Assembly: GCF_001375555.1 (NCBI RefSeq)
Contig: NZ_CTDZ01000009.1
Location: 124,001 to 188,000 of the forward strand
Length of the DNA stretch: 64,000 bases
Direction: 5' to 3'
From: Numidum massiliense
GTDB taxonomy: Bacteria > Bacillota > Bacilli > Thermoactinomycetales > Novibacillaceae
A model generated the notes under the pieces. That model made no database searches. It saw only the letters and a program-made list of their open reading frames with translations, and was not told the DNA's origin. The position numbers and the translations under genes were made by a program. Shown one piece after another: positions 2-19,623 of the stretch (positions within the stretch are counted from its first letter, which is position 1; each line of letters opens with the position of its first letter).

Positions 2-1624
2 TTGGAAGACGATGTGCGCGATCACATGCTACACTCGCATGAAGTTTTTCAGAGCAGGCGCAAAGTTGGCGTAGACGGTCTGTTCCACTTGTGCAGATGT
101 TTGCTTAAACGCAAAAATAAGAACATTAAACATATAAAAGTATTAGTTCGCGATACGTGGGAAGTGGACGGTTCTGAAACGGGTTTATCGCCATTGTCCG
201 CTGCTACGGCGGGGCTCGCGAGAGTCATCGGACAAGAATACCGCCATATCGATGTCGACGTGCTAGATGTTTCAGGTACGGTTTCGGCACATTCTGTCAT
301 CGAAGAGTGTTTTAGGGGCACAGGGTTTAGGGTGTTGCGACCTTCCGGTGTTTATATCGAGGAACTGCAACCGCGCGTAGTCCCTTCAACTAGAGAGCTT
401 TCCATCGAAACGAAAGGTGCCTATGTCATCACTGGCGGTTTAGGTGGGCTAGGACTTTCCATCGCTGAACGGTTAGCGGACAAAGGAGAAGCTACAATAG
501 TTTTACTCGGGCGACGGCAGCTAGCGGCGCTAGATGAGTGGCTAGAACTATCAACATCGGACGATATGAAAACGAGTCAGCTGTACACGCGGCTCTTGAA
601 CTTGAAGGCTCGTGTAGGACACATAGAATACATGTCGCTAGATGTAGCTGACTCTGCGGCTATAGCTGCATTAGGTGACGACTTGAAGACGCGCTACGGC
701 GGAATCGCCGGCATATTCCATACAGCGGGTGTGGCCGGAGACGGATTCTTAATGTTAAAAGATGTGAGTGATTTCCACGACGTATTAAATCCGAAACTAG
801 ACGGTTCCGTGAATCTACTGCGACTTCTATCGGAAGACGGAACGAATTTCTTAACGCTGTTCTCTTCTATTACGGCTTTAACCGGTGGGGAAGGACAAGG
901 AGATTATTGTGCCGCCAACGCTTTTCTCGATGCCCTTGCAGAAGCGGGTCGGCGCGCTGGGTTAAATGTGACGGCGGTTAACTGGCCGAGCTGGCGCGAG
1001 GTGGGTATGGCTGTCGATTTCGCAGTCGATGCAACGGAAAGTCTGTTCCGCCCTGTCGACGTCGAAGAAGGTTTAAACTGGCTGGAACATTTAATTGTCG
1101 AACCCGAGAAAAGGCTCGTGCCAGCGGATTTGAACGTGTCCGCGCTAGCACGAGGTGAGACCGTTCCTTTTCGATTGGCTTTGGAACTGACAAATCGCTT
1201 GCGTGCGACAGAAGGAGAGGATCGTAATCGCGCGACGCGTGAAGTAGAGGTAATGATAAAAGGGACGAACAGCCCAACGCATACACAGCGTCTATTAGCA
1301 GACGCCTTCGGCCAATTGCTGGGGCTTTCTGAGATCGATATTTATGTCAGTTTTCAGGACCTGGGGGGAAATTCGTTAATGACGACGCAGCTTTTGCATA
1401 TCATTGAGGCGCACTTCCCTCACACGGTAGACATTTCAGACATTTTTTCCTATCCGTCCGTCAATGAGTTGGCTGAGTACATCGATCAACAGGGGCAAAG
1501 TGTCGCTCTTGACGCCAGTAGCGAAAAAGCTGCAGAAGATCGAGGGCTTGTGGATTTGATTGAAGAGGAATTAGAGGGAACTGAGTTTTTGGATGAATTT
1601 ATGCAACAGTTGCGGGAGAGGTGA
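2..1624 (+). CDS. Type I polyketide synthase, C-terminal part (KR-ACP), 5' end cut by window edge
   Basis: The frame is open to the left edge, so this is only the end of a larger PKS protein. A ketoreductase domain fills about residues 130-390: the NADPH-binding GGLGGLG loop is near residue 145 and the catalytic Ser and Tyr lie in FSSITAL and GDYCAANAF (Tyr near 302). An acyl carrier domain follows, with the phosphopantetheine Ser near residue 458 in LGGNSL. After it comes an acidic tail of about 50 residues that may act as a docking element to the next protein. The KR would reduce a beta-keto group made by a KS lying left of the window. The stop is followed after 2 nt by the next start, so the four synthase genes form one operon. 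Family assignment is secure; KS/AT content upstream cannot be seen. Confidence 0.92.
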   Translation: MEDDVRDHMLHSHEVFQSRRKVGVDGLFHLCRCLLKRKNKNIKHIKVLVRDTWEVDGSETGLSPLSAATAGLARVIGQEYRHIDVDVLDVSGTVSAHSVIEECFRGTGFRVLRPSGVYIEELQPRVVPSTRELSIETKGAYVITGGLGGLGLSIAERLADKGEATIVLLGRRQLAALDEWLELSTSDDMKTSQLYTRLLNLKARVGHIEYMSLDVADSAAIAALGDDLKTRYGGIAGIFHTAGVAGDGFLMLKDVSDFHDVLNPKLDGSVNLLRLLSEDGTNFLTLFSSITALTGGEGQGDYCAANAFLDALAEAGRRAGLNVTAVNWPSWREVGMAVDFAVDATESLFRPVDVEEGLNWLEHLIVEPEKRLVPADLNVSALARGETVPFRLALELTNRLRATEGEDRNRATREVEVMIKGTNSPTHTQRLLADAFGQLLGLSEIDIYVSFQDLGGNSLMTTQLLHIIEAHFPHTVDISDIFSYPSVNELAEYIDQQGQSVALDASSEKAAEDRGLVDLIEEELEGTEFLDEFMQQLRER

Positions 1625-1626
1625 CG

Positions 1627-4600
1627 ATGACACGTACAGGAATGGACACTAAAAAAGAGCTGGCACGTTTTCTCCTCAATAAAGTGAAGCAAAGAGAACT
1701 TGATCCGAAGTTGGCGATCGAATATATAAAGGAATTGGAGGCAGGGGCAGATGATAAAGTCGGACCGATGGCAATCATCGGTCTCTCCTGTCGCTTCCCC
1801 GAGGCAAACGACCCAGACGAGTTTTGGGACAACTTAGCGGCGGGACGCCACTCGATCCGATCGCTCCCCGCTGCCCGGGTGAACGATATTCAACGCATTG
1901 GCGGCGATACTTCTTCACTTATGAAGGCCGGTTATCTCGATGCAGTCGATACGTTTGACCCAGGATACTTTAACATCCCTCCGGGTGTTGCCAAAAAAAT
2001 GGATCCTTACCATCGGCTGCTACTGCAAGTTTTTGTGGAAACGATTGAGTCGGCGGGTTATCATCGAGGACAACTTCACGGACGTCAAATCGGAGTCTTT
2101 GTAGGTAACGATCACACACACCGTTTGGAAACGTCGTATTTATCCTTCTTAGATAAGAAAGATTTCACGGCGTTAACGGGTTCGTGGACAGGTGTGTTAG
2201 CCAGTCGGCTGTCCTATTTGTTAAATCTTCGCGGGCCGGCAATCGTGTTCGATACGGCTTGTTCCTCGACTTTAGTAGCTTTAGACAGTGCTATAAAGTC
2301 TATTGTAAATGGGGACTGTGAGGCTGCACTCATCGGAGGGGCGAACCTTCTTTTCTACCCCGGAAAACTGGACGGCGAGATCCAGTCGCCAGACTTCAGA
2401 GTACGCGCGTTCGATCGACAAGCGGAAGGGACAGCTTGGGGGGAAGGCGTCGCTGCAGTATACATTAAGCCGTTGTCGAAGGCGTTAGCCGACCGCGACC
2501 ATATTTACGGTGTGATTCGCGGCATTGCCATTAACAATGACGGAAAATCGAACGGTCTGACAGCGCCAAGCGCCAAAGCGCAAGAAGAAGTATTACTGAG
2601 TGCTTGGGAGCGGGCGAACATTTCCCCCGAGACGATTTCTTACATCGAAGCCCACGGCACTGGCACGAGTTTAGGTGACCCGATTGAAGTGAAAGGATTG
2701 ACGGGTGCGTTTTCTAAGCATACGAAACGACGTCAGTTTTGTGCGATCGGTTCGGTAAAGACTAACATCGGACACACTGTAGGGGCGGCTGGTTTGGCTT
2801 CATTGATCAAAGTACTTTTGTCGATGAAGGCAGAGGCACTTCCGCCTAGCTTGAACTTCAGTCAGCCCAACCAGCTAATCGATTTTTGCAACAGCCCGGT
2901 ATACGTGCAACAATGTCTGGCTGACTGGCCAAAAGGAGAAACACCGCGGAGGGCGGGAATCAGCTCCTTCAGTTTGTCGGGGACGAACGCCCACGTCGTC
3001 GTGGAAGAAGCGCCTTTTGACGACAGGGGGGTTACGTATGAAGGATGGGGAATATTCCCTATTTCTAGCCGTTCCCCGGAACTGTTGCGGGAGACAGCGT
3101 TGCGCTACGAGCGGTACGTGAAGCGCCATCGAGACGTGCGTTGGGAGGACCTCTGTTTTACAGCTTGTATCGGTCGGGAACAGGAAGCGGTACGTGCGGT
3201 TGTCCTCTGTCGCGACTCAACCGGATTGGCGGCAGGCTTGCGTGCGTTGGATGACTGTTTGTCGAAGCGAGTGAGCGATCACGTGCAGGACAACGGTATA
3301 AGTGATGTAAGTAGCGAAGGGGACGGCTTCTATTTGTTTTTAGGAACTAACGCAGATGCACCCGCTCATGCCCAGGGAATAACGTATGACCGAGAGGCTT
3401 CAGGTCAAAAACTTGTGCGGGACTTAGCGAAGCCTGAAGGATCACACGATGTGGGCGCTTGGAAACAACTAAGCTCCTTCTTCGTGCAAGGAATGGACGT
3501 GGATTTTAGTCCGTTGTTTGTCGATCGTCCCGTGCGACGCGCGCCATTGCCCCCGACAGTGTTTGACGACGATCGTTATTGGGATGAAACACCGCGACGA
3601 ATGCCGGCCGTCTCTGAACAGACAGAAGAGGGAGAGGAAGAGGGAGAAGTCAGTAGAAAATCGTTGTGGGCGCAGGCGCAAATCGGTGATTCGCGTTTCA
3701 ATCGGGAACCACAAGACGCAGTCGAACGATTCGCCGCGTGGGCGTGGTCGGAAATTTTAGGGTACGACACGATTAATCCCGATGATGACTTTTATGCGCT
3801 CGGCGGTGACTCGATCACCGGATTGAGGATTGTGCATCTCATTAATAAGGCGTTTGCTCTCGATCTCCCGCTATCTGTTTTGATGGGATCTCCCGCTTTC
3901 GATGCGTTTGTGCATCGGCTGCGTCACGATTTCGGAGTAGACGGGAGCGATCTTATGGCTCTTACGCGAATAGAAGAATCTCAATTGGCGCAAGACCAAA
4001 GTAGAGGCCAAACAGAGAACTCACCATTTCCATTGTCACCTGCTCAGAACAGAATGTTCTTGACGCATCGTTTGATGCCAGATTCTCTCGCCTACAATGT
4101 GACTGGTGTGATCAAACTCGCCGAGAGGGAAAGTGCTAATGAGATAGAGGCGATTATTCGCATCCTCGTCGAACGACACGACAGCTTGCGCACGTCATTT
4201 TATATGGAGGAAAACAAACCTGTTCAAGTGGTAAATTCTGAAGTCGCCTTTGCAGTTGACCGAAAAGTGCTGTGCGATAACGGGACGAAAACACGCGAGG
4301 AAGTTCTACAGGAGGAACTTAAAAAGTTTATTCGGCCATTCGATTTGCGTAAAGCGCCTTTATTTAGGATTGGATACTTTACATTTGGTGACGAAGAGTC
4401 CTACTTAGCGATTGATATGCATCACATCATTACAGACGGCATTTCCATGGGTGTTTTTTTCGCCGACTACATGTCCTTAGCGAAAGGACGGCAGCTAAAG
4501 CCGTTGTCATTTGGCTACCGGGATGCGGTTCAGTGGTTGTGCGATCGCTTAGAGGATTCCGATCTGGAGCAGCAACGGGAGTGGTGGAAAAACGAGTTTA

Positions 4601-7600
4601 GAGACGGTATTCCAGTACTTAATTTGCCGACAGACAAGCAGCGCCCTGCCGTGCGCGACAATCGCGGTGCACGGTTTTTCCATACGGTGCCCGCAGACTT
4701 GCATAAGCAGATCAAAATGCTGGCAAAGCAGTCTGGTGCGACGGAATTTATGGTGTTACTGGCTGCATTTCACAATTTATTGGCCCGCCTGGGTGGAGAT
4801 CGGGATATCGTGATCGGTACTCCGGTCGCAGGACGTCCGCGATTGGAATTTCAGCATTTGGTCGGCATGTTCGTTAACACATTGCCCATTCGGACCAAAT
4901 CGGAAGTAGGGGAGAGCTTTTCCAATTTGTTGCAGCGCTTGAAAAAGACCGTCATCGGTGCGTACGAGAATCAGGAATACCCTTATGAATTACTAATTGA
5001 CGATATAAAGCCCGAACGCGACCCAAACCGTAACCCGTTGTTCGATGTGTATTTTGCCTTGCAAAACATCGATATGGGTTTGCCAGGTGACAGCGAGAGA
5101 ATTGTAGATTTCGAACCTGGTAGTGCAAAGTTTGATTTAACCGTCAGTGCACGCGAAACTTCCACAGGGCTACTCATGGAATGGGAATACGCTGAATCGC
5201 TTTTTTACCGCCGAACGATTGAACGTATGGCCAAGCGCTATGAGTGCATGCTGCGGTCGATCGTGAAGACCCCCAATGCGCGATTAGGCGATTTGGAAAT
5301 AATGGAACCCGAAGAACGCCAGTTACTTTTGGAAGAATGGAGTGGTACAGTCTCCCGTTATCCCGGGGAGCGGGGGATTATCCCTCTCTTTGAACAATGG
5401 GTTCACGAGCGAGGGGATCGGAACGCACTCGTACTGGATAACCAGAGTATGAGTTATAAAAAGTTGAACAGCCGTAGCAACCGCATCGCGCGCGCCATCC
5501 TGGAAAAAGGGGGCGTTCCTGGTACGGCGATCGCCCTTTTGTTGCACCGATCGTTCGATATGATCGCTGCGATCCTAGGGGTACTTAAAGCAGGTTGTCA
5601 CTTCGTACCGCTCGATAGCGAAAATCCGCGGGAACGGTTACTGACGATCATGAGGGACAGTGGGTCAAAGCTATTAGTCACTCACAACGATCTCGCGGGG
5701 CACGTGATAGACGAGTGGAAGGAGGAGATGGGCGTTCTCGATCTCGACCGTCTCGATAGCAGTTTACCGGACGACGATCTTAATATAGAAGTAAGCGGTG
5801 AGGATTTAGCCTACATTGTGTACACTTCGGGATCGACCGGTACGCCTAAGGGCACGTTGATCCGGCAAAAAGGAATTGTTCGCTTAGTCCGTCAAGCGGA
5901 TTACTTGACCATTTTTCCGGAAGACGTTCTGCTGCAGCTCTCTAATTATTCATTTGACGGGGCGATGTTCGATATATTCGGAGCGTTATTGAACGGCGCT
6001 AGTTTAGTATTGCTACACAAGGAAGAAGTGACCGACCCTGTCGTTTTGGGGGAACGCATTCGCGACAGCAACGTTTCGCTGTTCTTTATTACGACGGCTC
6101 TCTTTAATGCTTTAGTAGATGCGAGTCCCGCCTGTCTCGACCGTACGAGGAAGGTTCTCTTTGGCGGGGAAGCAGCCTCGAAACATCACGTGCGTCAAGC
6201 TTTTGAACGCCTAGGACCCGGACGGTTGATCAACGTTTACGGCCCGACGGAAACGACAGTTTATGCGACGTATTATCCGATCGACACGCTTCCGGAGGAT
6301 GGAACGATTCCAATTGGTAAAAGCATTGGGAATACGGAGCTTTATGTGCTCGATGAGCGGATGCGCTTACAACCGATTGGTGTGCCGGGGGAATTGTATA
6401 TCGGGGGTCCTGGTGTGGCGACTGGCTATTTAAACCAGCCCAATCTTACGAAGAAACAATTCGTGGAAAACCCCTTCCAACCCGGGGGACGATTGTATCG
6501 CACGGGAGACTTAGTCGCTTGGGGGGATGACGGGTTCCTGCAATATTTAGGCCGCCGAGACCAACAAGTTAAATTGAGGGGGTTTCGGATCGAGCTAACG
6601 GAAATTGAAGAACATGCGGTCGTTCATCCAGCCGTGCGTGAAGCGTTTGCGGCAGTTCACGACGACCGACACATACTCTGCCTATGGGTCGTTCCGGAGA
6701 CAGGCATTTCGGAGTTTGACGTTCAAGACTTGCGGCAGACGTTGGCAAAGAGACTGCCGAGTTATATGGTACCGACTTTTATCACCCCGCTGCCCAGCTT
6801 GCCGTTAAACAAAAACGGTAAAGTCGACAAAGGCAAACTACCGGAACCTACAGTTGGGACGGAGGGGCAAGGGCGCGCGCCGCGCAATGAACGGGAAGCT
6901 TTACTGATAAATATTTGGGCGGAAGTGTTAGGTATTAGCAAGCCGAGCATCGATGACAACTTTTTTGCCCTTGGCGGCGACTCGATTAAGGCCATCCAAG
7001 TTGTCGCACGTATGCAACAAGCAGGGCAAAGCTTACAAGTCGCAGATTTGTTCCAATATCAGACGGTGGAATCGCTCGCGCCACATGTCACGTCAAAGCG
7101 AGAAGTTGAGGCAGAACAAGGAGAAGTGCGGGGTCTTTGTGTCCCAAGTGTCATCCAGTCATGGTTTATGCGAACAGCGGGACATTTGCACCATTTTAAC
7201 CAAGCGATGTGGATTCGCAAGAAGAAAGAAATCGACTACGTCAAGCTGGAAGCAGCTCTTAACCGTCTGTGCCAGCACCACGACGCGCTCAGGTTGGCAG
7301 TCTCTGCGGACGGAACGATGCGCATTAAGGGGATAGAGGAGGGCAACTTGTTCTATTTAACCGAATTGCCTGCGGACTTAGATCAAAGTGAACGCCGTGA
7401 TTATATCATCGAGGTACAGCGTCACATAAACATTCAGGATGGTCCGTTGGTCGCTGCGGCTGTTGGCAGAGGGAGGGTAGGAAGCGAGCTATTTATCGCT
7501 ATCCACCATTTAGCCGTGGACGTCGTCTCTTGGGATCCGCTATTGGAAGATTTGTTCGCTTCGCTAGACAGCCCGGACGAGTCACTCCCACAAAAAACAA

Positions 7601-8496
7601 CGCCGTTCCCTGTTTGGACGAAATCTTTAGCAGCATGGGCAGGCGAAGGGGGAGCGAAGGATGAACTGCCTTACTGGCGAAGAATAGCTAAAAAAGCTAA
7701 AGAGGCGCCGGTACCGTTTGTGCCGCAAAAAGTGTTACACAAGGACACGGTAAGCGTGAAACATTGGATTGAGGGGGAAATTGGCGAGGCATTGTGTAGT
7801 AAGGCCAATCGCGCGTACCATACTGAGACGGTACACTTAGTGCTCGCTGTATTGGCTCAAGCCGTAGGAGCTTGGAAAAATCGTTCGGCACTTCTATTCA
7901 ATCTTGAAGGGCACGGCCGAGAAGCGTTTACCGACGGCTTAGACGTCAGCCGTACGGCGGGCTGGTTTACGAGTGTTTTTCCAGTGTTATTGCAGGTAGA
8001 AGAAGAAATAGGGGCAACCGTTAAGGCTGTCAAGGAATGCGTTCGATCTGTTCCGAGACGGGGATTCGGTTTTGGGGTTTTACGTTCGTTAACGGAGGAT
8101 TTAACTTTGGAAGACCGAGAAGCACTGGAAAGTCTCCAATCCGCCATCAGCTTTAATTACCTCGGGGTCCAAGGGGAACAGCATCCCGGTGCGGTTGAGA
8201 TTGAGCCCCTGCCGGCTGACGTGACGGTGGACGGGAACTATGAGACTTCCTTAGTTCTCGATATCGTTGCGGCACAAGTAGGAACGGCTCTTTGTTTGGA
8301 CATACGCTATCCCCGTGCACTTTTTAGCGCAGAAGAATTTAGGGATTTATTAAAGCTAATCGATCAAGCTGCTACTGAAGTAGCTTACCACTGTTCAGAA
8401 CAGACTGTGGGAGAAAAAACAGCTTCTGATTTTACGGTGACACCGCTCGAACAAGAGGAATTGGAGAACATTCTCGACGATCTCGATATTAAGTGA
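1627..8496 (+). CDS. Hybrid PKS-NRPS: KS-ACP-C-A-PCP-E
   Basis: Multidomain synthase of about 2289 residues. After a short N-terminal helix (possible docking segment) comes a ketosynthase (about 45-480) with active Cys in TACSST (about 212), His in EAHGTGT and His in NIGHT. No acyltransferase follows; a linker ending in DDDRYW leads to an ACP (Ser about 729, LGGDS). Then come a condensation domain (HHIITDG about 932), an adenylation domain (YTSGSTGTPKG about 1399), a PCP (Ser about 1786) and an epimerisation domain (HHLAVDV about 1960, FNYLG near the end). My reading of the specificity pocket is D-G-F-F-L-G-V-V-Y-K, which I remember as an isoleucine code in bacitracin synthetase. With the E domain this predicts a D-configured residue. 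ATG 1627 is preferred because GGGAGAGG sits 5 nt upstream; GTG 1621 would overlap that site. The missing AT means malonyl loading in trans. Confidence 0.93.
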   Translation: MTRTGMDTKKELARFLLNKVKQRELDPKLAIEYIKELEAGADDKVGPMAIIGLSCRFPEANDPDEFWDNLAAGRHSIRSLPAARVNDIQRIGGDTSSLMKAGYLDAVDTFDPGYFNIPPGVAKKMDPYHRLLLQVFVETIESAGYHRGQLHGRQIGVFVGNDHTHRLETSYLSFLDKKDFTALTGSWTGVLASRLSYLLNLRGPAIVFDTACSSTLVALDSAIKSIVNGDCEAALIGGANLLFYPGKLDGEIQSPDFRVRAFDRQAEGTAWGEGVAAVYIKPLSKALADRDHIYGVIRGIAINNDGKSNGLTAPSAKAQEEVLLSAWERANISPETISYIEAHGTGTSLGDPIEVKGLTGAFSKHTKRRQFCAIGSVKTNIGHTVGAAGLASLIKVLLSMKAEALPPSLNFSQPNQLIDFCNSPVYVQQCLADWPKGETPRRAGISSFSLSGTNAHVVVEEAPFDDRGVTYEGWGIFPISSRSPELLRETALRYERYVKRHRDVRWEDLCFTACIGREQEAVRAVVLCRDSTGLAAGLRALDDCLSKRVSDHVQDNGISDVSSEGDGFYLFLGTNADAPAHAQGITYDREASGQKLVRDLAKPEGSHDVGAWKQLSSFFVQGMDVDFSPLFVDRPVRRAPLPPTVFDDDRYWDETPRRMPAVSEQTEEGEEEGEVSRKSLWAQAQIGDSRFNREPQDAVERFAAWAWSEILGYDTINPDDDFYALGGDSITGLRIVHLINKAFALDLPLSVLMGSPAFDAFVHRLRHDFGVDGSDLMALTRIEESQLAQDQSRGQTENSPFPLSPAQNRMFLTHRLMPDSLAYNVTGVIKLAERESANEIEAIIRILVERHDSLRTSFYMEENKPVQVVNSEVAFAVDRKVLCDNGTKTREEVLQEELKKFIRPFDLRKAPLFRIGYFTFGDEESYLAIDMHHIITDGISMGVFFADYMSLAKGRQLKPLSFGYRDAVQWLCDRLEDSDLEQQREWWKNEFRDGIPVLNLPTDKQRPAVRDNRGARFFHTVPADLHKQIKMLAKQSGATEFMVLLAAFHNLLARLGGDRDIVIGTPVAGRPRLEFQHLVGMFVNTLPIRTKSEVGESFSNLLQRLKKTVIGAYENQEYPYELLIDDIKPERDPNRNPLFDVYFALQNIDMGLPGDSERIVDFEPGSAKFDLTVSARETSTGLLMEWEYAESLFYRRTIERMAKRYECMLRSIVKTPNARLGDLEIMEPEERQLLLEEWSGTVSRYPGERGIIPLFEQWVHERGDRNALVLDNQSMSYKKLNSRSNRIARAILEKGGVPGTAIALLLHRSFDMIAAILGVLKAGCHFVPLDSENPRERLLTIMRDSGSKLLVTHNDLAGHVIDEWKEEMGVLDLDRLDSSLPDDDLNIEVSGEDLAYIVYTSGSTGTPKGTLIRQKGIVRLVRQADYLTIFPEDVLLQLSNYSFDGAMFDIFGALLNGASLVLLHKEEVTDPVVLGERIRDSNVSLFFITTALFNALVDASPACLDRTRKVLFGGEAASKHHVRQAFERLGPGRLINVYGPTETTVYATYYPIDTLPEDGTIPIGKSIGNTELYVLDERMRLQPIGVPGELYIGGPGVATGYLNQPNLTKKQFVENPFQPGGRLYRTGDLVAWGDDGFLQYLGRRDQQVKLRGFRIELTEIEEHAVVHPAVREAFAAVHDDRHILCLWVVPETGISEFDVQDLRQTLAKRLPSYMVPTFITPLPSLPLNKNGKVDKGKLPEPTVGTEGQGRAPRNEREALLINIWAEVLGISKPSIDDNFFALGGDSIKAIQVVARMQQAGQSLQVADLFQYQTVESLAPHVTSKREVEAEQGEVRGLCVPSVIQSWFMRTAGHLHHFNQAMWIRKKKEIDYVKLEAALNRLCQHHDALRLAVSADGTMRIKGIEEGNLFYLTELPADLDQSERRDYIIEVQRHINIQDGPLVAAAVGRGRVGSELFIAIHHLAVDVVSWDPLLEDLFASLDSPDESLPQKTTPFPVWTKSLAAWAGEGGAKDELPYWRRIAKKAKEAPVPFVPQKVLHKDTVSVKHWIEGEIGEALCSKANRAYHTETVHLVLAVLAQAVGAWKNRSALLFNLEGHGREAFTDGLDVSRTAGWFTSVFPVLLQVEEEIGATVKAVKECVRSVPRRGFGFGVLRSLTEDLTLEDREALESLQSAISFNYLGVQGEQHPGAVEIEPLPADVTVDGNYETSLVLDIVAAQVGTALCLDIRYPRALFSAEEFRDLLKLIDQAATEVAYHCSEQTVGEKTASDFTVTPLEQEELENILDDLDIK

Positions 8497-8513
8497 TAAA
8501 AAGGAGCAGAGCA

Positions 8514-11500: not shown

Positions 11501-11741
11501 AGGTGCGAATTCGTTAAATATGATGACGATCAACGTGCGTCTTAAGAAGGCGTTCAAAAGGGACATCCCTTTAACCGTCCTGTTCGAACATCCTTCCATC
11601 GCCCAAATCGCCGCATACTTACAGAAGAAAGGGGAAACTGACATCCGTGGCGAAAAGGCGCGTAAGCAAGAGATGGAGAGTGCACGTGGGACCCTTCTAA
11701 AAACGCAGTCACTTATTCAAAAAATGGGAGGATCAAGATGA
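8514..11741 (+). CDS. Non-ribosomal peptide synthetase module C-A-PCP
   Basis: Single elongation module of 1075 residues. The condensation domain (about 5-440; HHILMDG about 142) follows an epimerase in the previous protein, so it should be of the DCL kind that accepts a D-donor. The adenylation domain spans about 455-960 (YTSGSTGRPKG about 609). Its pocket reads D-A-F-W-L-G-G-T-F-K, close to the valine code known from gramicidin S and tyrocidine synthetases. The PCP Ser is near 1000 in LGANSL. The start is ATG 8514 with AAGGAG 7 nt upstream; an in-frame GTG at 8493 overlaps the previous stop but lacks a site. The stop overlaps the next start in ATGA. Val loading is an inference from residues aligned by eye. 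Confidence 0.93.
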   Translation: MIQKENIQDIYGLSPMQKSMLFNHAVDPESSAYTEQFDFRISGEIDPPRLEWALNKLFERYDILRTIFSYRQTDEPRQVVLKVRTPEWVVKDFRGEPVPEERVKAFKEADKQRGFDLSRDVLCRGALLRTGEQSWCFIFSFHHILMDGWSLAPLFQSFFSLYEEGTEQGVARFRRDEHPYYEYIRWLQGQDEEEASRYWRQYLEGYEKPVSLPSDTSSASYRHDTHSFHLPAALTERLRKLARSHQWTVNAIFQTAWGLLLQKYNYTRDVVFGNVVSGRPPELPGVEQMVGLFINTLPLRVRTEDGDSFSSLCTKVQRESFNVSSFEYYPLYQIQGESPLKNKLLNHVVAFENYPLAEQLQRLGSNGEQPYQIEEVKVFEQTNYDFHVVVNPGDAIVINFAYNGNCFSQEIVEGIERSFITLLESACHDPEAPIETLRVCAATDQSIVLENFNSGRRPYPADRTVDQMFREVASTFPTRTALKWKERTFTYEQLDAWSDRLAAQLASKGLGPNVTAGLFVPRSPEMVAGILAILKTGASYVPLDTVNTSERLAFIAEDADIAIVCTRSDLKDNVPTDVDVFLLDEVEGAAREKHVSADHGPEAPAYTMYTSGSTGRPKGCVITHRNILNLVLGQDYVDFGPHQVILQTGSPAFDACTFEIWGALLHGGTLVLIEEEDILDADALEGHIARHGVQTMWLTAPLFNRLCDQSPHLFRNLKNLLVGGDTLSVPHIKRVQEANPDLKIVNGYGPTENTTFSTTHTVTARDIERERIPIGRPLSNRNVYIVDRGLNLLPVGAIGELCVGGDGVSIGYHNRAELTTQRFLDDPFVAGGRLYRTGDLARWLADGTIDYLGRFDSQVKIRGYRVELGEIERVMADLPHLQEVTVQVREIGEDKRICAYYTSQGEVDLDAWKGILKFKLPDYMIPDFFIKMDSLPLTVNGKIDRQALPAPQFQRAEVSSAMRPLSQVEKTVATICASVLGIDPAAISVKENFFDLGANSLNMMTINVRLKKAFKRDIPLTVLFEHPSIAQIAAYLQKKGETDIRGEKARKQEMESARGTLLKTQSLIQKMGGSR

Positions 11742-14700
11742 ACATCAAGCGAGAATATACGGGGTTAGAGATCGCTGTCATCGGAATGGCGGGTCGGTTT
11801 CCGGGGGCAGAAAATTTAAAGGATTTTTGGAACAACTTACTCGCGGGAAAAGAATCGATTTCTTTCTTTAGCGATGAGGAATTAATCGCTGGGGGTGTGA
11901 CGCAAGAACTATTATCCAATCCGAACTATGTGAAAGCTAAGGGTGTATTTCCGGGGCTGGAGTACTTTGATGCCGACTTTTTCAACTATACGCCTAGGGA
12001 CGCATCCCTGTTAGATCCACAGGTGCGTGCGCTGCACGAAGAAGTTTATCACGCCTTGGAAGATGCCGGTTACGCCGCTGAAGATTCGCGCGAAACAACC
12101 GGACTCTTCCTAGGTGCCACGGGTAATTTAGCGTGGGAGCTGGATACGATAAAAGCTACCGTAGAAGGCGGTGGCCATGAATTTGCGACCATTCAATTGA
12201 ACGACAAGGATTTTGCGGCTACCCGTATCGCCTATAGCCTCAACCTTCAAGGGCCAAGTGTCGTCGTCCACAGTGCGTGTTCAACGTCGCTCTACGCTGT
12301 CGACGTGGCGTGCCGACACATTTTGACCGGTGCGTGCTCTTTAGCCGTTGCAGGCGGCAGTGGATTGACTTTGCCCCACCGGAACGGGTATTTGTATAAG
12401 GATGGCATGATTAATTCCCCGGACGGCCACTGTCGCCCATTTGATCAAGAGGCGAGAGGCACCGTTGAAGGGAACGGTCTAGGTGTGGTTGTATTAAAAC
12501 GGCTCGAGGAGGCTATTAGAGACAGGGACCACATCTATGCTATCATCCGCGGCACGGCGGCCAATAACGACGGAAATCGCAAAGTCGGTTTCACCGCGCC
12601 TAGTGTCGAGGGGCAGGCTGAAGTTATTCGGCGGTCGCTCATCATGGCGGGCGTCTCGGCGGAAAGTATATCTTACGTCGAGACCCACGGAACCGGGACG
12701 AATATAGGTGACCCGATCGAAGTAGCGGCATTGAAAAAAGCGTGGCAGAACGTTGACAAACGGTCATGTGGGATCGGCTCGTTAAAATCGAATATTGGGC
12801 ACCTCGATGTGGCGGCCGGCATTTCCTCTCTCATCAAAACATCGTTAGCCCTAAAGCAGGAGGAAATTCCAGCGAGTATTAATTATAAAAAGGGAAACCC
12901 GGAAATTGACATTGATAACAGTCCCTTTTATGTTGTGACCGAGACGAAGCGATGGGAGCGGAAACGCATATCCAATCTTTCGAACGCTTATGCTCCGCTG
13001 AGAGCAGGGATCAGTTCGTTCGGTATCGGTGGTACGAACGTCCACATGATTTTAGAGGAGGCACCGGAACGCAGTGCATCGGGGAAAGGGAGGGAGTGGA
13101 AACTGTTTTGCCTTTCTGCACACACTGACACCGCGTTACGGCGTTTGAAGGAGTCTTATCTCGAGTACCTGACGGGTGAGGGGAGGTCGGTCGATCCGTC
13201 AGATTTGGCCTGGAGCTTGCAAACGAGACAGAAGAACATGCCGAAGCGATTTGCATTACCTTATCGCGATATGAACGATTTAATCGCAGGTCTCACCGCC
13301 AGCTTGCACGAAGAAAATAGCGCCGGAAAACATTACTCTGCGATGTCAGAACGCAATCCGAACGTATATTTTCTATTCTCGGGACAAGGGTCGCAATATC
13401 GCGGCATGGCGCAAAAACTTTACGAAACTGAACCCGTCTTCCGCCGAGAGCTAGACGCTTGTTTGGCATTCGTCGAGGCAGAAGGGAATAAAGAACTACG
13501 GCATGTCCTTTTGAACGGCGAGGATCAACGGCGCGAGGGCCAACATCAGGCAGGGCTACAAGAAACAGGCCTTTCGCAAATTGCGCTCTTTGTCGTGGAG
13601 TACTCTTTGGCGCGATTGTTGATGTCGTGGGGCATTCATCCAACGGGCATGATTGGCCACAGTTTGGGAGAGTATACGGCCGCTTGTGTGGCAGGGGTAT
13701 TCACCTTAGAAGAAGGGATCAAACTCGTTCTCGCTCGCGGGAGCGTCATGCAAGCAATGCCACGCGGGTCGATGCTCGGGGTTCACGCTTCGTCTGAAAC
13801 GGTGGAACCCTTATTGACGAGGGATTTATCGTTGGCGGCGATTAACAGTCCTACTCACTGCACCGTTTCTGGATCGGCCGAAGCGATTAAAGCGTTTGAA
13901 CAACGCCTAGCCGCGCGGGGCTTGGCCAGTACGAAATTACAGACGTCTCACGCCTTTCACTCGGCACTTATGGAAGGGGCGATGGAACCTTTTAAAGGCG
14001 TATTTTCTGGCGTTAAACTGAAAGAACCGCAGATTCCTTATGTTTCTAACGTAACCGGGGATTGGATAAGCTCCCAAGATGCGACAGATGCGAGCTATTA
14101 CGCGAAGCATTTGCGAGGGTGTGTCAATTTTGCCGCCGGAATTAAAAAAATATTGGCTGATGAACGCGCTGTTCTCATCGAAGTAGGGCCCGGACGGACG
14201 TTAGCAACTTTTGCCCGTCAAGCCGATGCCACGAAGCCTTTGGCAGTTGTCAATACGTTACGACACCCAAAAGAAACAACATCCGACGATACGTATTTAG
14301 TGGCGCGGCTAGGAGAACTGTGGGGTAACAACGTAGCGTTGAACTGGAAAGCTTATTACAAAGGTCAAGTCCGAAATCGCGTGCAGCTCCCACTGTATCC
14401 TTTCGAACCTAAAAAATTTCCGCTAGGTAGCGGCGGTATTGCTCAACTGCTAGAAGTAGGTACCGATGCGAAGGCACTAGTTGCCGCTACTCAGGAAATG
14501 ACTACCCACGATTCAGAAACGATGGGGACGACACAGTTGGAAGCCGGACAAATCGATTGGGATCCAGCGTTTTTACCGCCTAAAGATCGTACCGAGCAGC
14601 ATCGGACCTGTTTAGTGCTGACCGACCAAGTCGATGCTGTAAGCTCTCTGACAGAACATCTTTCAAGGTGGAGATTTTATTCTGTTCAGGACGGTGACAG

Positions 14701-17700
14701 CTACCTTTATAAAGGAACACTCGGGGCGACCGTACGGTGCGGAAATGCATTACATATGCGCCTTTTGCTGCGGGATTTATACGAGCAAGCGTTACTGCCC
14801 AATACAGTGATCGTCTCTTACACGACTGCCAAACAAACTGAGGAAGGACTGCGCGCGCTTATACATGCTTTAACAGTAGAATTAAAAGAGGCGTTACCCG
14901 AAGTAGTTGTTCTTAGTCCGGTTTCACCCGTTTCCGACATGCCGCACCTCGTAACGCAAGTGCGCGGTATCGGGATGGCGAATCCTAACCTACCTATTCG
15001 GCTTTTGGACGCCGGCACGCCGTTAGGCAGCGAAGGGGCTGGGGAAAAATGGGCGACCGTCTTAAAGCATGAACTCGTTGACCGCGCGTTTCGTTATCCG
15101 GCCGTCGCTTATGTCGGCAATCGCCGGCAAGTATTACGGTTTAAGCCATTGGATGTGGAGCGGCTAAGCCCGGCATCACCGTTACAACGAAGTCGTTTTG
15201 TCTTTTTAAGCCGGGAAGACCAGTTGCCGATGTCGCTCGCTCTACCACGAAATCTCGTGAAAGATTTAGAGGCTGAAGTTACTGTGTTGCCTTACCGTCT
15301 ACAACCCGAAGTACCCGTTCCGGACAACGTGTTCGCGGAGCTACAAGGTGAACAGGAAAAATATATAAGCCGTTATGGAGTCCAAAACTTGTCGAAGGTG
15401 CATGATCTAGTAGATGAGTATGCGACACGCTTAATTTATGATTATATTCATCCTGTTTTTCCACTTAAGCCCGGAAAAACGTTTATACGGGAGGAAATGT
15501 CTAGAAGCTTGGGGGTCATTTCCTCGCTGGAACGATATGTCGACTATTTCTTACACATGTTGTGTGAAGATGGTCTTTTAGAGAAGGCCGGGGATGAGTG
15601 TTATCGGGTGACAGACCGTGTGCAATCACTGCGTCGTTCGGCAATCATTCGTGGCGACGTTGAACGTACGACCACTTTGTTTTCCGGACAACTGGACCTT
15701 TTAGAACACTGTGTCGACAACTTCGGATCAGCTTTACGCGGGGACGTTCCCTCCTTAGCTGTTTTGTATCCGGGAGGGAAGGAAGATTTACTTCGCGAAT
15801 CTTATATAGGTTCGATCCAAGAGAAAGAGGATGACTTGATTAAAGAGATCTTCTCTACGATGCTTGCGAAAATAACGAGCACAAACCGTAAAATCCGTAT
15901 ATTAGAGGCCGGTGGCGGATACGGTGCCATTTTACGCAAGGTGGCGCCTCTCTTAAAGGGTCTCGACGTTGACTATTACTTTACCGATGTCGGAAATTCT
16001 TACATCGAGGACTTTCAACAGTACGCCTTAGAAGAGGGATTGGACTTCTTGCACTTTGGCCTGTTTGATATTACTAAAGAGCCGGAAGCACAAGGGTTGG
16101 ATGCCGCTTCTTTTGATATCGTATTTGCTTATAACGTCGTGCATGCTACAGAGCGCTTGTCAGTCAGCTTAAGTAATATGCAACGTTTGTTAAAGCCCGG
16201 CGCTTTACTTTGCGTGTTAGAACGGACTAAGGCGCGTCGCTATGTCGATCTCATATGGGGTCTTGCAGACGGATGGTGGCATTTTGACCAGGATGAGCGG
16301 GAACTGTCCCCACTCGTTTCAAAAGAACAATGGGAAGGACAATTCAGAGCACTCGGTTTAGAAAAGGTTACCGTATACCCCGACCATCCCGAATTGCGCG
16401 AATGTATGGATGTCGGTATCGTGATCGGGCGCATGCCGCTCTCTCGGCACACAGCTGGAAACAAGACAGTGCGCGAAGGCGAAAAAGGGATTCGGCTCTT
16501 ACCTACAGTGGAAGCTACGGACGCTTCTTCGTTAGAACCGGCTCTTAATAAAGCGTTAAGTGATGTACGCTACGCTGACGGCATTGTCGCCTGGGATGAT
16601 TTAGAAAGCAAAGAAAACAGCTTTCGTTTTCGTTCTCTCGTTCCACTCATTCCGGAATCAGTCGAAATTGCTAACAGCGTCAATCGCGCTGTCGGACGAC
16701 ACGCAGCTAGCTGGGATAAACCAGCCGTCGTCATCTCAAACCTCCCCCATACGGACAAGTGGGGGGAAAGTGAGACAGAGTGGGCGATCGTACACGATAA
16801 GCTAGATGCCGATGCAGATACTTACAGGATTTACGTGTCAGGAGATGATCCGAACATTGACGCCATACCGAGTGTGTTAGACGCCATGTTAACATCGGGG
16901 ATGAAACGCGTGGCGATCCGTTCCGGTCGTCATCCATTCTTGTCTGTAGCACCGAGTAAGCCGTTATTGCCGGAAGAGGGGGGGATTTCCTCCGAACTGG
17001 AGAAAACGGAAAGCATGTTGAAAAAAGTTTGGAGCAAGCTGCTTGGTCGGGAAGTAGATATCGATGCGGATTTCTTTGAATTAGGTGGGGATTCTTTTAA
17101 GTTAATTCAAATGACGGTAGACTTAGAACGGGAAGGGCATAAGGTGCTAATGAATGAGGTATACAAGTATCCGACGATCCGTTCTTTGGCTCGTTATCTG
17201 AATGAAGCGGGTCAGCAAAACAGCACGGACATGTTAACGGCAGCCGATATTGAAGACAAGTTGCATGATGAAGCGGGGACGAAATGCCGTTTATGTGTCG
17301 TAGATGACGGTAATGAGCAGAAAAATGTGTTGTTTGTAGATGTAGATAAGGGAGCTAGCGGGGTAGCCAAGATTCGCCAACGGCTCAAATCGATGCAGCT
17401 TCCGGAAAAGTTTTTCCCGCACTATGTGCTACCACTCTCTCTGGCCAACAGTCCTTCCGACCGCATGAATATGGATCAATTAGTCGCGTTAGGGGCGTTA
17501 AGTGATTGTGAGAAGGGTATTTTGGAAGATTTGGACAAACGGCTTTCCATTGCGCAAAACGCGTTCAACCAAGCGATTGTGAGGCAACCCGTGTTGCAAT
17601 GTTATGGGCTGAGCAATATTCAAAAAACGCATTTTCGCGGCAACGTCCGACTGCAACTGTATTTCATTGAGTTCCACGAAAATGTGGACGAGGAGCTATT

Positions 17701-18895
17701 GGAACGGGCATTTTGCGATGTAGTGGGCAGTCACGGGCTACTCCGTAGTTGTCTGTACAAACAGACGGGTGAGTATCGGTGGAAAGAGTTTGCACCGCCG
17801 CAAGAAACACCTCTACCGCGATTAGATCTATCGCTGCTTACTCCGGCAGCACAGTCTCGCGTGATGGACTTCTTGGCCAGGAGGGAATCGGAGGCAGACT
17901 TTAAAGTAGAGGGCATCCCAATGTATCACGTCACGTTGATTAAGCTGAACGAACGGCACTACAATTTGTTTTTCCAGTTTGATCACTCGATTTTCGACGT
18001 ATCGTCGGGACAAGTGATTCGCCGTCAGCTTTTTCAGCGTTATAAGGATCTGCAACAAGGGAGCAGAAGGGCGATGGAAGTCTCAACTAGCTACCGGGAC
18101 TACTTGAAGCAAATCCATCGAGGCCCAATAGGCATTACGGCGGAGGAATTGATCGCTCGCTTTAATTTGCGACAGTACACCGCGTACAACAAAATAGTGA
18201 GTGAAAAAATTGACCAACGCCCACTGGGCCGAATTCAACAATTACGCAGTAGTGTCGATTTATCACGCTTCAATTTCGATAAAAATGACCAAGATGGTCC
18301 CTTCGAAGTTGCGTTACAAATTTATATCCTCGTCATCTCGCGATTGTTGGAGCTGGATACCGTTCCTTTTGATCTTCTTTTTCAAAATCGTAGATACGAG
18401 AATAAGAACTTCGCGGATGTTGTCGGTCTCGTTCTAGATAGTGTGCCATTTGTCGTACCGGTCAATCGTGAGGAGCCGTCTCGCATGACAGCCGTCATTA
18501 GGGAGAACATTCAGCTCATCAACGACCATAACATCAATTTTCTCAACATGGCGTGGGATGACTCTTCAACGGTGCGCTGGGAAAAAGTGACGGAGGCAAG
18601 AAATACGAGCGCTACTTTTTATAGTCCGTTCCTGCTTAATTACGCGGGTAACGCTGAGCTTGAGTACGATAAGATTTGGGACTACAGCATGGAACAGCTG
18701 GACGACGACGGTCAAGCAAGACTAAATTACGCTGATTTTTACGGATTAGTGAAAGTGAGGAACAACAAACTGGACTTCCTCATTTTGTGTAAGTTCGAGC
18801 CACAGATGGAAAGGATCCGTCAACTATTTGACGAAGAGATAGCGCACTTAATAAAGATGCAAGTTAAGAAAAGAGCAGTGAGGGGTAACGTATGA
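11738..18895 (+). CDS. PKS module KS-AT-pseudoKR-C-methyltransferase-ACP with C-terminal condensation-like domain
   Basis: Protein of 2385 residues. KS about 5-440 (Cys about 181 in SACSTS, His in ETHGTGT and SNIGH). AT about 540-850 with GHSLG Ser about 642 and an HAFHS motif near 738, typical of malonyl-CoA selection. About 930-1130 resembles the structural half of a ketoreductase without a visible active site. A C-methyltransferase spans about 1160-1580, with a helical lead-in, a SAM loop AGGGYG near 1391 and GLADGWWHF. An ACP has Ser near 1786. From about 1935 a condensation-like domain runs to the end, but its catalytic motif reads DHSIFDV near 2082, so the first His and the final Gly of HHxxxDG are replaced. 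There is no thioesterase or reductase domain. The expected chemistry is one malonyl extension with alpha-methylation, then release by the terminal C-like domain or in trans. GGGAGG lies 5 nt before ATG 11738. Confidence 0.92.
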   Translation: MNIKREYTGLEIAVIGMAGRFPGAENLKDFWNNLLAGKESISFFSDEELIAGGVTQELLSNPNYVKAKGVFPGLEYFDADFFNYTPRDASLLDPQVRALHEEVYHALEDAGYAAEDSRETTGLFLGATGNLAWELDTIKATVEGGGHEFATIQLNDKDFAATRIAYSLNLQGPSVVVHSACSTSLYAVDVACRHILTGACSLAVAGGSGLTLPHRNGYLYKDGMINSPDGHCRPFDQEARGTVEGNGLGVVVLKRLEEAIRDRDHIYAIIRGTAANNDGNRKVGFTAPSVEGQAEVIRRSLIMAGVSAESISYVETHGTGTNIGDPIEVAALKKAWQNVDKRSCGIGSLKSNIGHLDVAAGISSLIKTSLALKQEEIPASINYKKGNPEIDIDNSPFYVVTETKRWERKRISNLSNAYAPLRAGISSFGIGGTNVHMILEEAPERSASGKGREWKLFCLSAHTDTALRRLKESYLEYLTGEGRSVDPSDLAWSLQTRQKNMPKRFALPYRDMNDLIAGLTASLHEENSAGKHYSAMSERNPNVYFLFSGQGSQYRGMAQKLYETEPVFRRELDACLAFVEAEGNKELRHVLLNGEDQRREGQHQAGLQETGLSQIALFVVEYSLARLLMSWGIHPTGMIGHSLGEYTAACVAGVFTLEEGIKLVLARGSVMQAMPRGSMLGVHASSETVEPLLTRDLSLAAINSPTHCTVSGSAEAIKAFEQRLAARGLASTKLQTSHAFHSALMEGAMEPFKGVFSGVKLKEPQIPYVSNVTGDWISSQDATDASYYAKHLRGCVNFAAGIKKILADERAVLIEVGPGRTLATFARQADATKPLAVVNTLRHPKETTSDDTYLVARLGELWGNNVALNWKAYYKGQVRNRVQLPLYPFEPKKFPLGSGGIAQLLEVGTDAKALVAATQEMTTHDSETMGTTQLEAGQIDWDPAFLPPKDRTEQHRTCLVLTDQVDAVSSLTEHLSRWRFYSVQDGDSYLYKGTLGATVRCGNALHMRLLLRDLYEQALLPNTVIVSYTTAKQTEEGLRALIHALTVELKEALPEVVVLSPVSPVSDMPHLVTQVRGIGMANPNLPIRLLDAGTPLGSEGAGEKWATVLKHELVDRAFRYPAVAYVGNRRQVLRFKPLDVERLSPASPLQRSRFVFLSREDQLPMSLALPRNLVKDLEAEVTVLPYRLQPEVPVPDNVFAELQGEQEKYISRYGVQNLSKVHDLVDEYATRLIYDYIHPVFPLKPGKTFIREEMSRSLGVISSLERYVDYFLHMLCEDGLLEKAGDECYRVTDRVQSLRRSAIIRGDVERTTTLFSGQLDLLEHCVDNFGSALRGDVPSLAVLYPGGKEDLLRESYIGSIQEKEDDLIKEIFSTMLAKITSTNRKIRILEAGGGYGAILRKVAPLLKGLDVDYYFTDVGNSYIEDFQQYALEEGLDFLHFGLFDITKEPEAQGLDAASFDIVFAYNVVHATERLSVSLSNMQRLLKPGALLCVLERTKARRYVDLIWGLADGWWHFDQDERELSPLVSKEQWEGQFRALGLEKVTVYPDHPELRECMDVGIVIGRMPLSRHTAGNKTVREGEKGIRLLPTVEATDASSLEPALNKALSDVRYADGIVAWDDLESKENSFRFRSLVPLIPESVEIANSVNRAVGRHAASWDKPAVVISNLPHTDKWGESETEWAIVHDKLDADADTYRIYVSGDDPNIDAIPSVLDAMLTSGMKRVAIRSGRHPFLSVAPSKPLLPEEGGISSELEKTESMLKKVWSKLLGREVDIDADFFELGGDSFKLIQMTVDLEREGHKVLMNEVYKYPTIRSLARYLNEAGQQNSTDMLTAADIEDKLHDEAGTKCRLCVVDDGNEQKNVLFVDVDKGASGVAKIRQRLKSMQLPEKFFPHYVLPLSLANSPSDRMNMDQLVALGALSDCEKGILEDLDKRLSIAQNAFNQAIVRQPVLQCYGLSNIQKTHFRGNVRLQLYFIEFHENVDEELLERAFCDVVGSHGLLRSCLYKQTGEYRWKEFAPPQETPLPRLDLSLLTPAAQSRVMDFLARRESEADFKVEGIPMYHVTLIKLNERHYNLFFQFDHSIFDVSSGQVIRRQLFQRYKDLQQGSRRAMEVSTSYRDYLKQIHRGPIGITAEELIARFNLRQYTAYNKIVSEKIDQRPLGRIQQLRSSVDLSRFNFDKNDQDGPFEVALQIYILVISRLLELDTVPFDLLFQNRRYENKNFADVVGLVLDSVPFVVPVNREEPSRMTAVIRENIQLINDHNINFLNMAWDDSSTVRWEKVTEARNTSATFYSPFLLNYAGNAELEYDKIWDYSMEQLDDDGQARLNYADFYGLVKVRNNKLDFLILCKFEPQMERIRQLFDEEIAHLIKMQVKKRAVRGNV

Positions 18896-19623
18896 GTCAC
18901 TTTGATTTATTTTGTATACCTTACGCCGGGGGTTCCGCCAGTGCCATTTACGGTAAGTGGGTGCAGCACCTCGATCCGAAGATTAAGGTTCATCCGCTAG
19001 AGCTTGCCGGTCACGGGAGAAGGATGTCGGAGCCCTTTCACTCCTCGGTTAAAGCTGCGGTTGCAGATATGATGGAAACGATTCGTACGCGTATTTCCGA
19101 GCGACCCTATGCCGTGTACGGTCACAGTATGGGAACAGTGTTTGCCTATGAACTTGCTGTAGCGGTCCAAGCGGCTGGCCTTCCCCAGCCCCGTGTGCTG
19201 TTCCTATCTGGGCGCCAAGCGCCGCATTACATTTATAAAGATAGAGACATGCATCTTTTACCCGCCTCTGAATTTATAAAAAAAATTGAGCGGATCGGCG
19301 GCACGCCGCGTCAATTATTTGAGTCCGAGGAACTAGTTAAGATCTTTCTCCCTATTTTACGCGATGACTATCGCCTCATTGAGCAATATCGCTTTCAACC
19401 GCCTGGTACGAAACTTGATGCGGATATTGTATTTTTTTTCAGTGATAACGACCATTTGGTGGATCGGCTGGGTGTATTGGAATGGAAGCGTTATACGACC
19501 CGGTCCTTTGAGCTACACGACTTCAAAGGTGGTCACTTCTTTATTAACGAGAAGGGTGCCGAAATTTGTGACACTATTAATCGGAAACTAAAATCCTATC
19601 TGGCGTATAGTAACCATTTATAA
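18892..19623 (+). CDS. Type II thioesterase of the NRPS/PKS cluster
   Basis: A 243-residue alpha/beta hydrolase of the GrsT/SrfAD family. Visible are the early PYAGGSA oxyanion segment, the nucleophile motif GHSMG (about residue 82), an acidic residue in a SDNDH-type segment and the catalytic His in KGGHFF near the C-terminus. Such enzymes clear mis-primed or stalled acyl groups from carrier domains and act as stand-alone cytoplasmic proteins. The start overlaps the preceding synthase stop in ATGA, so the two are translationally coupled. As the last synthase has no internal thioesterase, this protein is the only hydrolase in view, but its family normally edits rather than releases product. 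Confidence 0.93.
   Translation: MSHFDLFCIPYAGGSASAIYGKWVQHLDPKIKVHPLELAGHGRRMSEPFHSSVKAAVADMMETIRTRISERPYAVYGHSMGTVFAYELAVAVQAAGLPQPRVLFLSGRQAPHYIYKDRDMHLLPASEFIKKIERIGGTPRQLFESEELVKIFLPILRDDYRLIEQYRFQPPGTKLDADIVFFFSDNDHLVDRLGVLEWKRYTTRSFELHDFKGGHFFINEKGAEICDTINRKLKSYLAYSNHL

Follow-up and report, generated by a model that had tools for sequence, protein, structure and literature searches.

How does a PKS-NRPS line free its chain when its last protein ends in a condensation-like domain? The question is raised by a gene cluster of Numidum massiliense that was analysed here in a window of 64,000 nucleotides (contig NZ_CTDZ01000009.1, positions 124,001 to 188,000), from whose first letter all positions are counted. 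A first-pass annotation of this DNA had described the last protein as ending in a C-like domain with the motif DHSIFDV, in which the central His and Asp are kept, had found no thioesterase or reductase domain, and had assigned chain release to the C-like domain. The final 451 codons and the stop of gene 11738-18895 correspond in frame to 17540-18895 (Table 1). The statement on absent domains holds for this polypeptide but not for its surroundings: the next gene, which overlaps the stop of the last PKS gene by four bases (ATGA), encodes a thioesterase, so that the notion of a release in which no thioesterase takes part is not supported.

Table 1. Features of the end of the assembly line in the window and the basis on which each was called.
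Feature	Position	Strand	Basis
Last part of a KS-DH-KR-ACP protein whose start lies upstream of the window	2..1624	+	Pfam, domain profiles
KS-ACP-C-A-PCP-E protein	1621..8496	+	Pfam, domain profiles
NRPS C-A-PCP protein, last amino acid	8493..11741	+	Pfam, domain profiles
Last PKS protein, 2385 aa, KS-AT-(degenerate KR region)-cMT-ACP-linker-CT	11738..18895	+	ORF list, Pfam, domain profiles
Ketosynthase, residues 8-384	11759..12889	+	Pfam, domain profiles
Acyltransferase, residues 545-840, GHSLG and HAFH	13370..14257	+	Pfam, domain profiles
KR-like structural region, residues 901-1340 (called KR-like by eye)	14438..15757	+	No PF08659 match
C-methyltransferase, residues 1367-1545	15836..16372	+	Pfam; best PDB match CurJ 5thy, 6.5e-32
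Acyl carrier domain, residues 1761-1821, FELGGDSFK	17018..17200	+	Pfam, domain profiles, family alignment
Linker subdomain of 113 aa with FPHYVLPL; kind found in 10 of 15 family proteins	17201..17539	+	
Terminal condensation-like (CT) domain	17540..18892	+	PF00668, family profile, tree
DHSIFDV motif, first His replaced by Asp, second His and Asp retained	17981..18001	+	Within FFQFDHSIFDVSSG
Free-standing type II thioesterase gene	18892..19623	+	PF00975 2.5e-45

The terminal domain belongs to the NRPS condensation superfamily. Pfam places a Condensation match (PF00668) at residues 1974-2249 of the last protein with an E-value of 1.6e-18, and a fold model made from six sequences aligns with known C domains over about 310 residues (313 at the highest Z, 15.7); the model is of low confidence (pLDDT 52.9, pTM 0.50) and supports only a condensation fold, and a model of the ACP-linker-CT unit from two sequences was too poor for use (pLDDT 37.6). 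Where elongation domains have HHxxxDG, the terminal domain reads FDHSIFDVSSG, and the second His and the Asp (His149 and Asp153 in the numbering of the excised domain) are invariant across 15 aligned family members, which bears out the motif and the two kept residues as first annotated. The earlier wording of an altered active site is correct insofar as the motif differs from HHxxxDG, but the residues are better regarded as the usual signature of the family, in which 13 of 15 terminal domains have a residue other than His at motif position 1 (D in seven, S in four, N and T in one each).

That the domain is not noise follows from its 57-59% identity to three relatives and from the residues DHSIFD, which all four have in common. 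Over 451 aa the identity is 59% to G151 and 57-58% to G162, genomes that both belong to another family; Oceanobacillus manasiensis reaches 57%. In comparison with G151 and G162, the terminal domain is about as conserved (57-59%) as the last protein's acyltransferase (58-61%) and more conserved than the KR-like region between acyltransferase and methyltransferase (46%).

In a maximum-likelihood tree of 60 domains, the 15 terminal domains stand apart from 36 C and nine E domains with a support of 100/100; all rows come from loci chosen for having a CT domain, domains of up to 330 aa were left out, and some of the remaining ones are cut by the locus end or by joins made in assembling the loci. 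Two rows labelled C (pHD01 and Eleftheria) adjoin the E group. A family profile, A1, was made from 15 chosen sequences, among them 13 of the 15 terminal domains of the tree (those of Oceanobacillus and G304a are not in it). It scores 422-518 bits on the 15 terminal domains, drawn from 15 sets of loci, and no more than 86 bits on the 45 other C and E domains there; the window domain, whose 509 bits are those of a row of the model itself, is accompanied by the held-out Oceanobacillus domain at 422 bits. The first motif His is present in all 45 other domains (HH in 36 of 36 C domains), and within the clade HH is retained in Eleftheria and pHD01 only, whereas all 15 members have the second His and the Asp. 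The Asp of a second signature, GxxxDxxP (VGLVLDSVP in the window), is found in every one of the 15 terminal domains and is absent from all 45 others. At the level of sequence, the window domain is thus shown to belong to a distinct clade of bacterial terminal condensation-like domains. It does not appear to be a canonical elongation C domain (LCL or DCL), as it is without HH and falls outside the elongation group of the tree, nor an epimerisation domain, the nine E domains forming a group of their own (99/97). A decayed elongation C domain was likewise considered and ruled out in view of the acyltransferase-like conservation, the separate clade and the family-wide motif pattern. The two members that keep HH (L041 and L042, from pHD01 and Eleftheria terrae) are sisters in the tree (100/99) and have an Arg after the Asp (HHAICDRVT and HHVLFDRVS).

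The position of the domain is as characteristic as its motif. At a threshold of 1e-40, a search of the class found a family match in at least 22 of 398 genomes and at least 8 of 146 genera, these counts being lower bounds since up to four candidates per NRPS-rich genome were scored. All of the at least 23 matches, 12 of which are members of A1, sit at the C-terminus of their protein; in 22 of them 1-10 aa separate the end of the match from the stop (7 aa in the last protein of the window), and the remaining one is weak and partial (172 bits) and ends 80 aa before it. Distant family matches, with 19-28% identity to the window domain, are also the last domain of their protein at 10 of 10 loci with a match and in Eleftheria as well. 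A phylum-wide search matched at least 2 of 398 genomes, both already in the class set. Six records matched in a plasmid collection, in which no Staphylococcus record was among the matches; the best three, which are two plasmids of Paenibacillus and a record of Eleftheria terrae, have the domain at the protein end in each case. A search of the window DNA against plasmid DNA gave no match, and neither a single-sequence scan of the genome collection nor viral scans confirmed a relative. In 10 of the 15 family proteins, among them those of the window and of L041, L042, L043, L044 and L051, the CT domain is preceded by a subdomain of 104-122 aa in which a Pro-His pair is conserved (as PHY, PHH or PHA); in the other five it is preceded by 32-42 aa.

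TqaA is a fungal CT domain with a structure; at 1e-3 the family profile matches 46 PDB entries, none of them named as a fungal CT domain. The HtmB2-CT domain of hangtaimycin, entered in the PDB as a special condensation domain (8z0q and 8z0r; compare PMC10624959), is a weak profile match (1.6e-5) and resembles the fold model with a Z of 13.9, as do many C domains. Fungal CT domains are reported to cyclise their chains and to carry SHxxxDxxS/T in place of HHxxxDxxS/T (PMC5941284). Like the CT domain of the fungal cycloaspeptide synthetase (PMC5941284), the window domain stands at the very end of its line and keeps xHxxxDxxS with the first His replaced, DHSIFDVSS departing from the fungal pattern in no other way than by having Asp rather than Ser at that place; unlike it, the window domain is bacterial and sits behind a PKS carrier. 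According to a 2023 survey of NRPS motifs, CT subtypes occur only in fungi, and the C-domain subtypes of common classifiers include no bacterial terminal one (PMC10212144). Among the matches listed in a search of the open-access literature, no paper describes the bacterial clade. The window domain would be of a known general kind, a terminal C-like release domain, in a bacterial variant that appears to lie outside the classifiers treated in that survey (PMC10212144), and the release function first proposed for it is consistent with both its position and its family.

Which chain would this domain meet? The Pfam scan of the 2385-aa last protein gave no KR match (PF08659), and the best PDB match of the methyltransferase is the C-methyltransferase of CurJ, a resemblance on the strength of which an O-methyltransferase leading to a methoxy-pyrrolinone was ruled out; a PADLOC match named mads_2 spans the methyltransferase domain only. 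Because of these two features, an acyl-Val beta-keto-alpha-methyl thioester is expected on the last carrier, as the first-pass annotation had also proposed. The acyltransferase presumably loads malonyl, judging by GHSLG and HAFH, and the specificity codes of the A domains, read by eye, are taken to suggest Gly, Ile (epimerised; 1621-8496) and Val (8493-11741).

The window begins inside the cluster, the start of which lies in the upstream DNA of the same contig. There, the PKS-NRPS part consists of a first protein with the order ACP-KS-AT-ACP-aminotransferase-C-A-PCP, a free acyltransferase and two KS-DH-KR-ACP proteins, the second of which runs into the window. The cluster combines AT-containing and AT-less modules with the free enzyme. 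Further upstream genes encode a hydroxyacyl-CoA dehydrogenase and an FkbH-like protein, both named by eye and which we assume to have a hydroxymalonyl role, and an acyl-CoA dehydrogenase (Pfam). In the first protein (L002:942-9764) about 200 aa without a Pfam match follow the last carrier and may serve in docking or be what is left of a C domain. In the protein 1621-8496, the KS is followed by a short stretch without an AT or KR match and then by the carrier.

Close relatives of the cluster were found in G151 and G162, both from the class search of 398 genomes, and in Oceanobacillus manasiensis, and to our knowledge no product has been assigned to any of the four clusters. The gene order from the free acyltransferase to the thioesterase is identical in all four. 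The starts of the lines differ: G151, G162 and Oceanobacillus have a match to a fatty acyl-AMP ligase (FAAL) but lack an aminotransferase domain in the line, and in the window cluster the reverse is the case. The models for KR, AMT and other domains used here were built from one to five sequences of the window cluster, for which reason a missing match in the other clusters weighs less than a Pfam miss. Oceanobacillus has two unlinked aminotransferases of 445 and 437 aa. Since the starts differ while the last module is shared, the shared release chemistry should, by this gene content, lie near the chain end.

The best explanation is an intramolecular release by the CT domain that yields an N-acyl 3-methyl tetramate, a reading held tentatively, with a chance of being right that falls just short of even. 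It builds on what is directly established, namely the domain family and its terminal position, the His and Asp, the module order, the absence of a KR match, the C-methyltransferase match, the thioesterase gene and the conservation across four clusters; from these we infer the substrates, the catalysis, the nucleophile, the ring and the part played by the thioesterase. The acyl-D-Ile-Val chain would be extended by one malonate unit, the beta-ketone being left in place and the alpha carbon methylated. The CT domain would then transfer the acyl chain intramolecularly and so free it from the last carrier, with no downstream carrier involved, and the second His of DHSIFDV would help to deprotonate the nucleophile. 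The Val amide nitrogen, as the nearest one for this chain, would be the most likely nucleophile and would close a five-membered lactam, so that the product set free would be an N-acyl-3-methyl-5-isopropyl-pyrrolidine-2,4-dione, stalled chains being edited by the type II thioesterase. By analogy, the release proposal is favoured by the motif pattern of the clade, which resembles the fungal SHxxxDxxS/T (PMC5941284).

The lactam closure proposed here has a precedent in mutanocyclin and reutericyclin, for which formation of the tetramate ring by lactam closure after an NRPS-PKS line has been shown experimentally (PMC10161427), although MucE does so with a TE rather than a C domain. As in MucD and MucE, an NRPS part is followed by a PKS part in the window, where an amino acid module (C-A-PCP) precedes a ketone-keeping PKS module (KS-AT-MT-ACP, no KR match). 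The two lines differ in that MucE is given as KS-ACP-TE with no methyltransferase listed (PMC10161427), whereas the PKS protein of the window ends in a CT domain and has its TE in a separate gene. The same paper names naturally occurring tetramates whose 3-position bears a plain methyl group (PMC10161427). Another condensation-like protein, JamQ, has been proposed for the pyrrolinone of jamaicamide, a role given as likely (PMC2799420); it can be likened to the window domain, by description only, in being C-like and proposed for ring closure, and differs in being a separate protein. An ice-nucleating PKS-NRPS system with a thioesterase (PMC8857237) was also considered and has no bearing on the terminal domain.

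One objection to release by the CT domain is that the enzyme which actually releases the chain could be the thioesterase. The CT domain would in that case be inactive or a mere gate, and the thioesterase would free a linear acid, or else the chain would cyclise by itself. The changed motif would fit an inactive domain, and the thioesterase gene not only overlaps the last PKS gene but adjoins the last module in four of four clusters, that is in the window and all three relatives. Against an inactive domain speak the His and Asp retained throughout the clade and a conservation about equal to that of the acyltransferase. Release by the thioesterase is argued against by its closest PDB matches, which are 5ugz (2.8e-47) and RifR (4.3e-40), the latter being an editing enzyme, and the gene encodes a RifR-related, free-standing type II thioesterase of the alpha/beta hydrolase kind. 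Ring closure of a beta-keto thioester that bears a gamma amide could proceed uncatalysed, and self-cyclisation of a related thioester, the tenuazonic acid intermediate, has been reported (PMC4640141); for epifadin, deletion of efiTP abolished activity, but the deletion also removes a phosphopantetheinyl transferase (PMC11310079). This is the likeliest of the alternatives, though still unlikely. The CT domain could also join the chain to a small outside nucleophile such as a diamine, amine or alcohol and so produce an amide or ester end, for which glidonin offers a bacterial precedent: its C13 domain, a last-module C domain that serves release like that of the window, condenses putrescine (PMC10587159). 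The glidonin domain is, however, described with HHxxxDG, the first His of which is missing in 13 of 15 domains of the window clade, is followed by a partial A, a T and a TE domain, and uses free putrescine (PMC10587159). A set of genes resembling those for diaminopropionate synthesis (cysteine-synthase-like, ornithine-cyclodeaminase-like and ParB-like, assigned by eye) lies several kb upstream of the G151 cluster (L039:27-2483), but none was seen beside the other three clusters (the flanks of G151 and G162 were viewed by eye), and none of the genes common to all four was recognised as producing an amine. Such a release is unlikely and ranks next.

In the iturins, TE domains form a macrolactam on a beta-amine, and the CT domain might close a comparable ring with a beta-amine derived from the aminotransferase of the first module. 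An aminotransferase is indeed part of the first protein of the window cluster and is found in four other CT clusters (G304a and G393, and, on weaker grounds and as separate genes, G041 and G288). The three relatives G151, G162 and Oceanobacillus argue against macrolactamisation, as they are without this aminotransferase domain in the line and yet have the same last module with a CT domain of 57-59% identity, which makes a macrolactam quite unlikely. Closure of some other ring by way of an enol carbon or oxygen at an earlier point of the chain, for instance in a Dieckmann-like or pyrone-type manner, would find a parallel in epifadin of Staphylococcus epidermidis, where the CT domain of EfiE, a bacterial PKS-NRPS, has been linked to a Dieckmann-like tetramate closure, with malonomycin cited (PMC11310079). 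EfiE and the window share a PKS-NRPS line, a CT domain and a thioesterase gene in the cluster, and a tetramate end is assigned to epifadin; but EfiE puts Asp onto a polyketide, whereas the window line puts a ketide onto an amino acid (PMC11310079 for EfiE). As the PKS module of the window comes after the last amino acid, the simplest five-membered closure would be N-C and not C-C, and an enol-derived ring is very unlikely, the least probable of the four alternatives. A Dieckmann-like closure would fit G041, G288 and G393, in which a PKS module without a KR match precedes C-A-PCP-CT.

Beyond the single locus, the preferred reading of intramolecular release could be widened to the proposition that a so far unclassified bacterial subtype of terminal C-like domain, recognisable by xHxxxDxxS and GxxxDxxP and often by a lead-in of 110 aa, replaces the TE as a cyclising release domain in lines of Bacilli, and that its member in the window, acting on a polyketide carrier, forms the lactam of an N-acyl 3-methyl tetramate; in the literature covered here, lactam-type tetramate closure has been demonstrated only for a line that ends in a TE, that of mutanocyclin (PMC10161427). 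This wider claim is possible but doubtful. If the clade is a release subtype, the product predicted for these clusters of Bacilli would shift from a linear acid or unknown to a cyclised one, and a compact release domain would be gained for engineering. With the window member it could also be tested directly if a C-like domain is able to form an N-acyl tetramate from a chain on a polyketide carrier.

The clade at large is not one of tetramate formers, since plain NRPS modules end the lines of the members G304a, G304b, G102, G338 and pHD02, in which macrocyclisation or another release is more likely. By their gene order, G041, G288 and G393, whose last modules resemble the epifadin arrangement, are candidates for tetramate end groups. 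At these loci (L048, L049 and L047, respectively), an AMP-ligase start and an aminotransferase were found, and the CT domain stands behind the PKS module without a KR match and one amino acid module. On pHD02, a Paenibacillus plasmid, a 122-aa frame behind an MFS gene (L043:14848-15216) has a partial match to the terminal profile (64 bits) and is perhaps a fragment of a second copy of the terminal domain.
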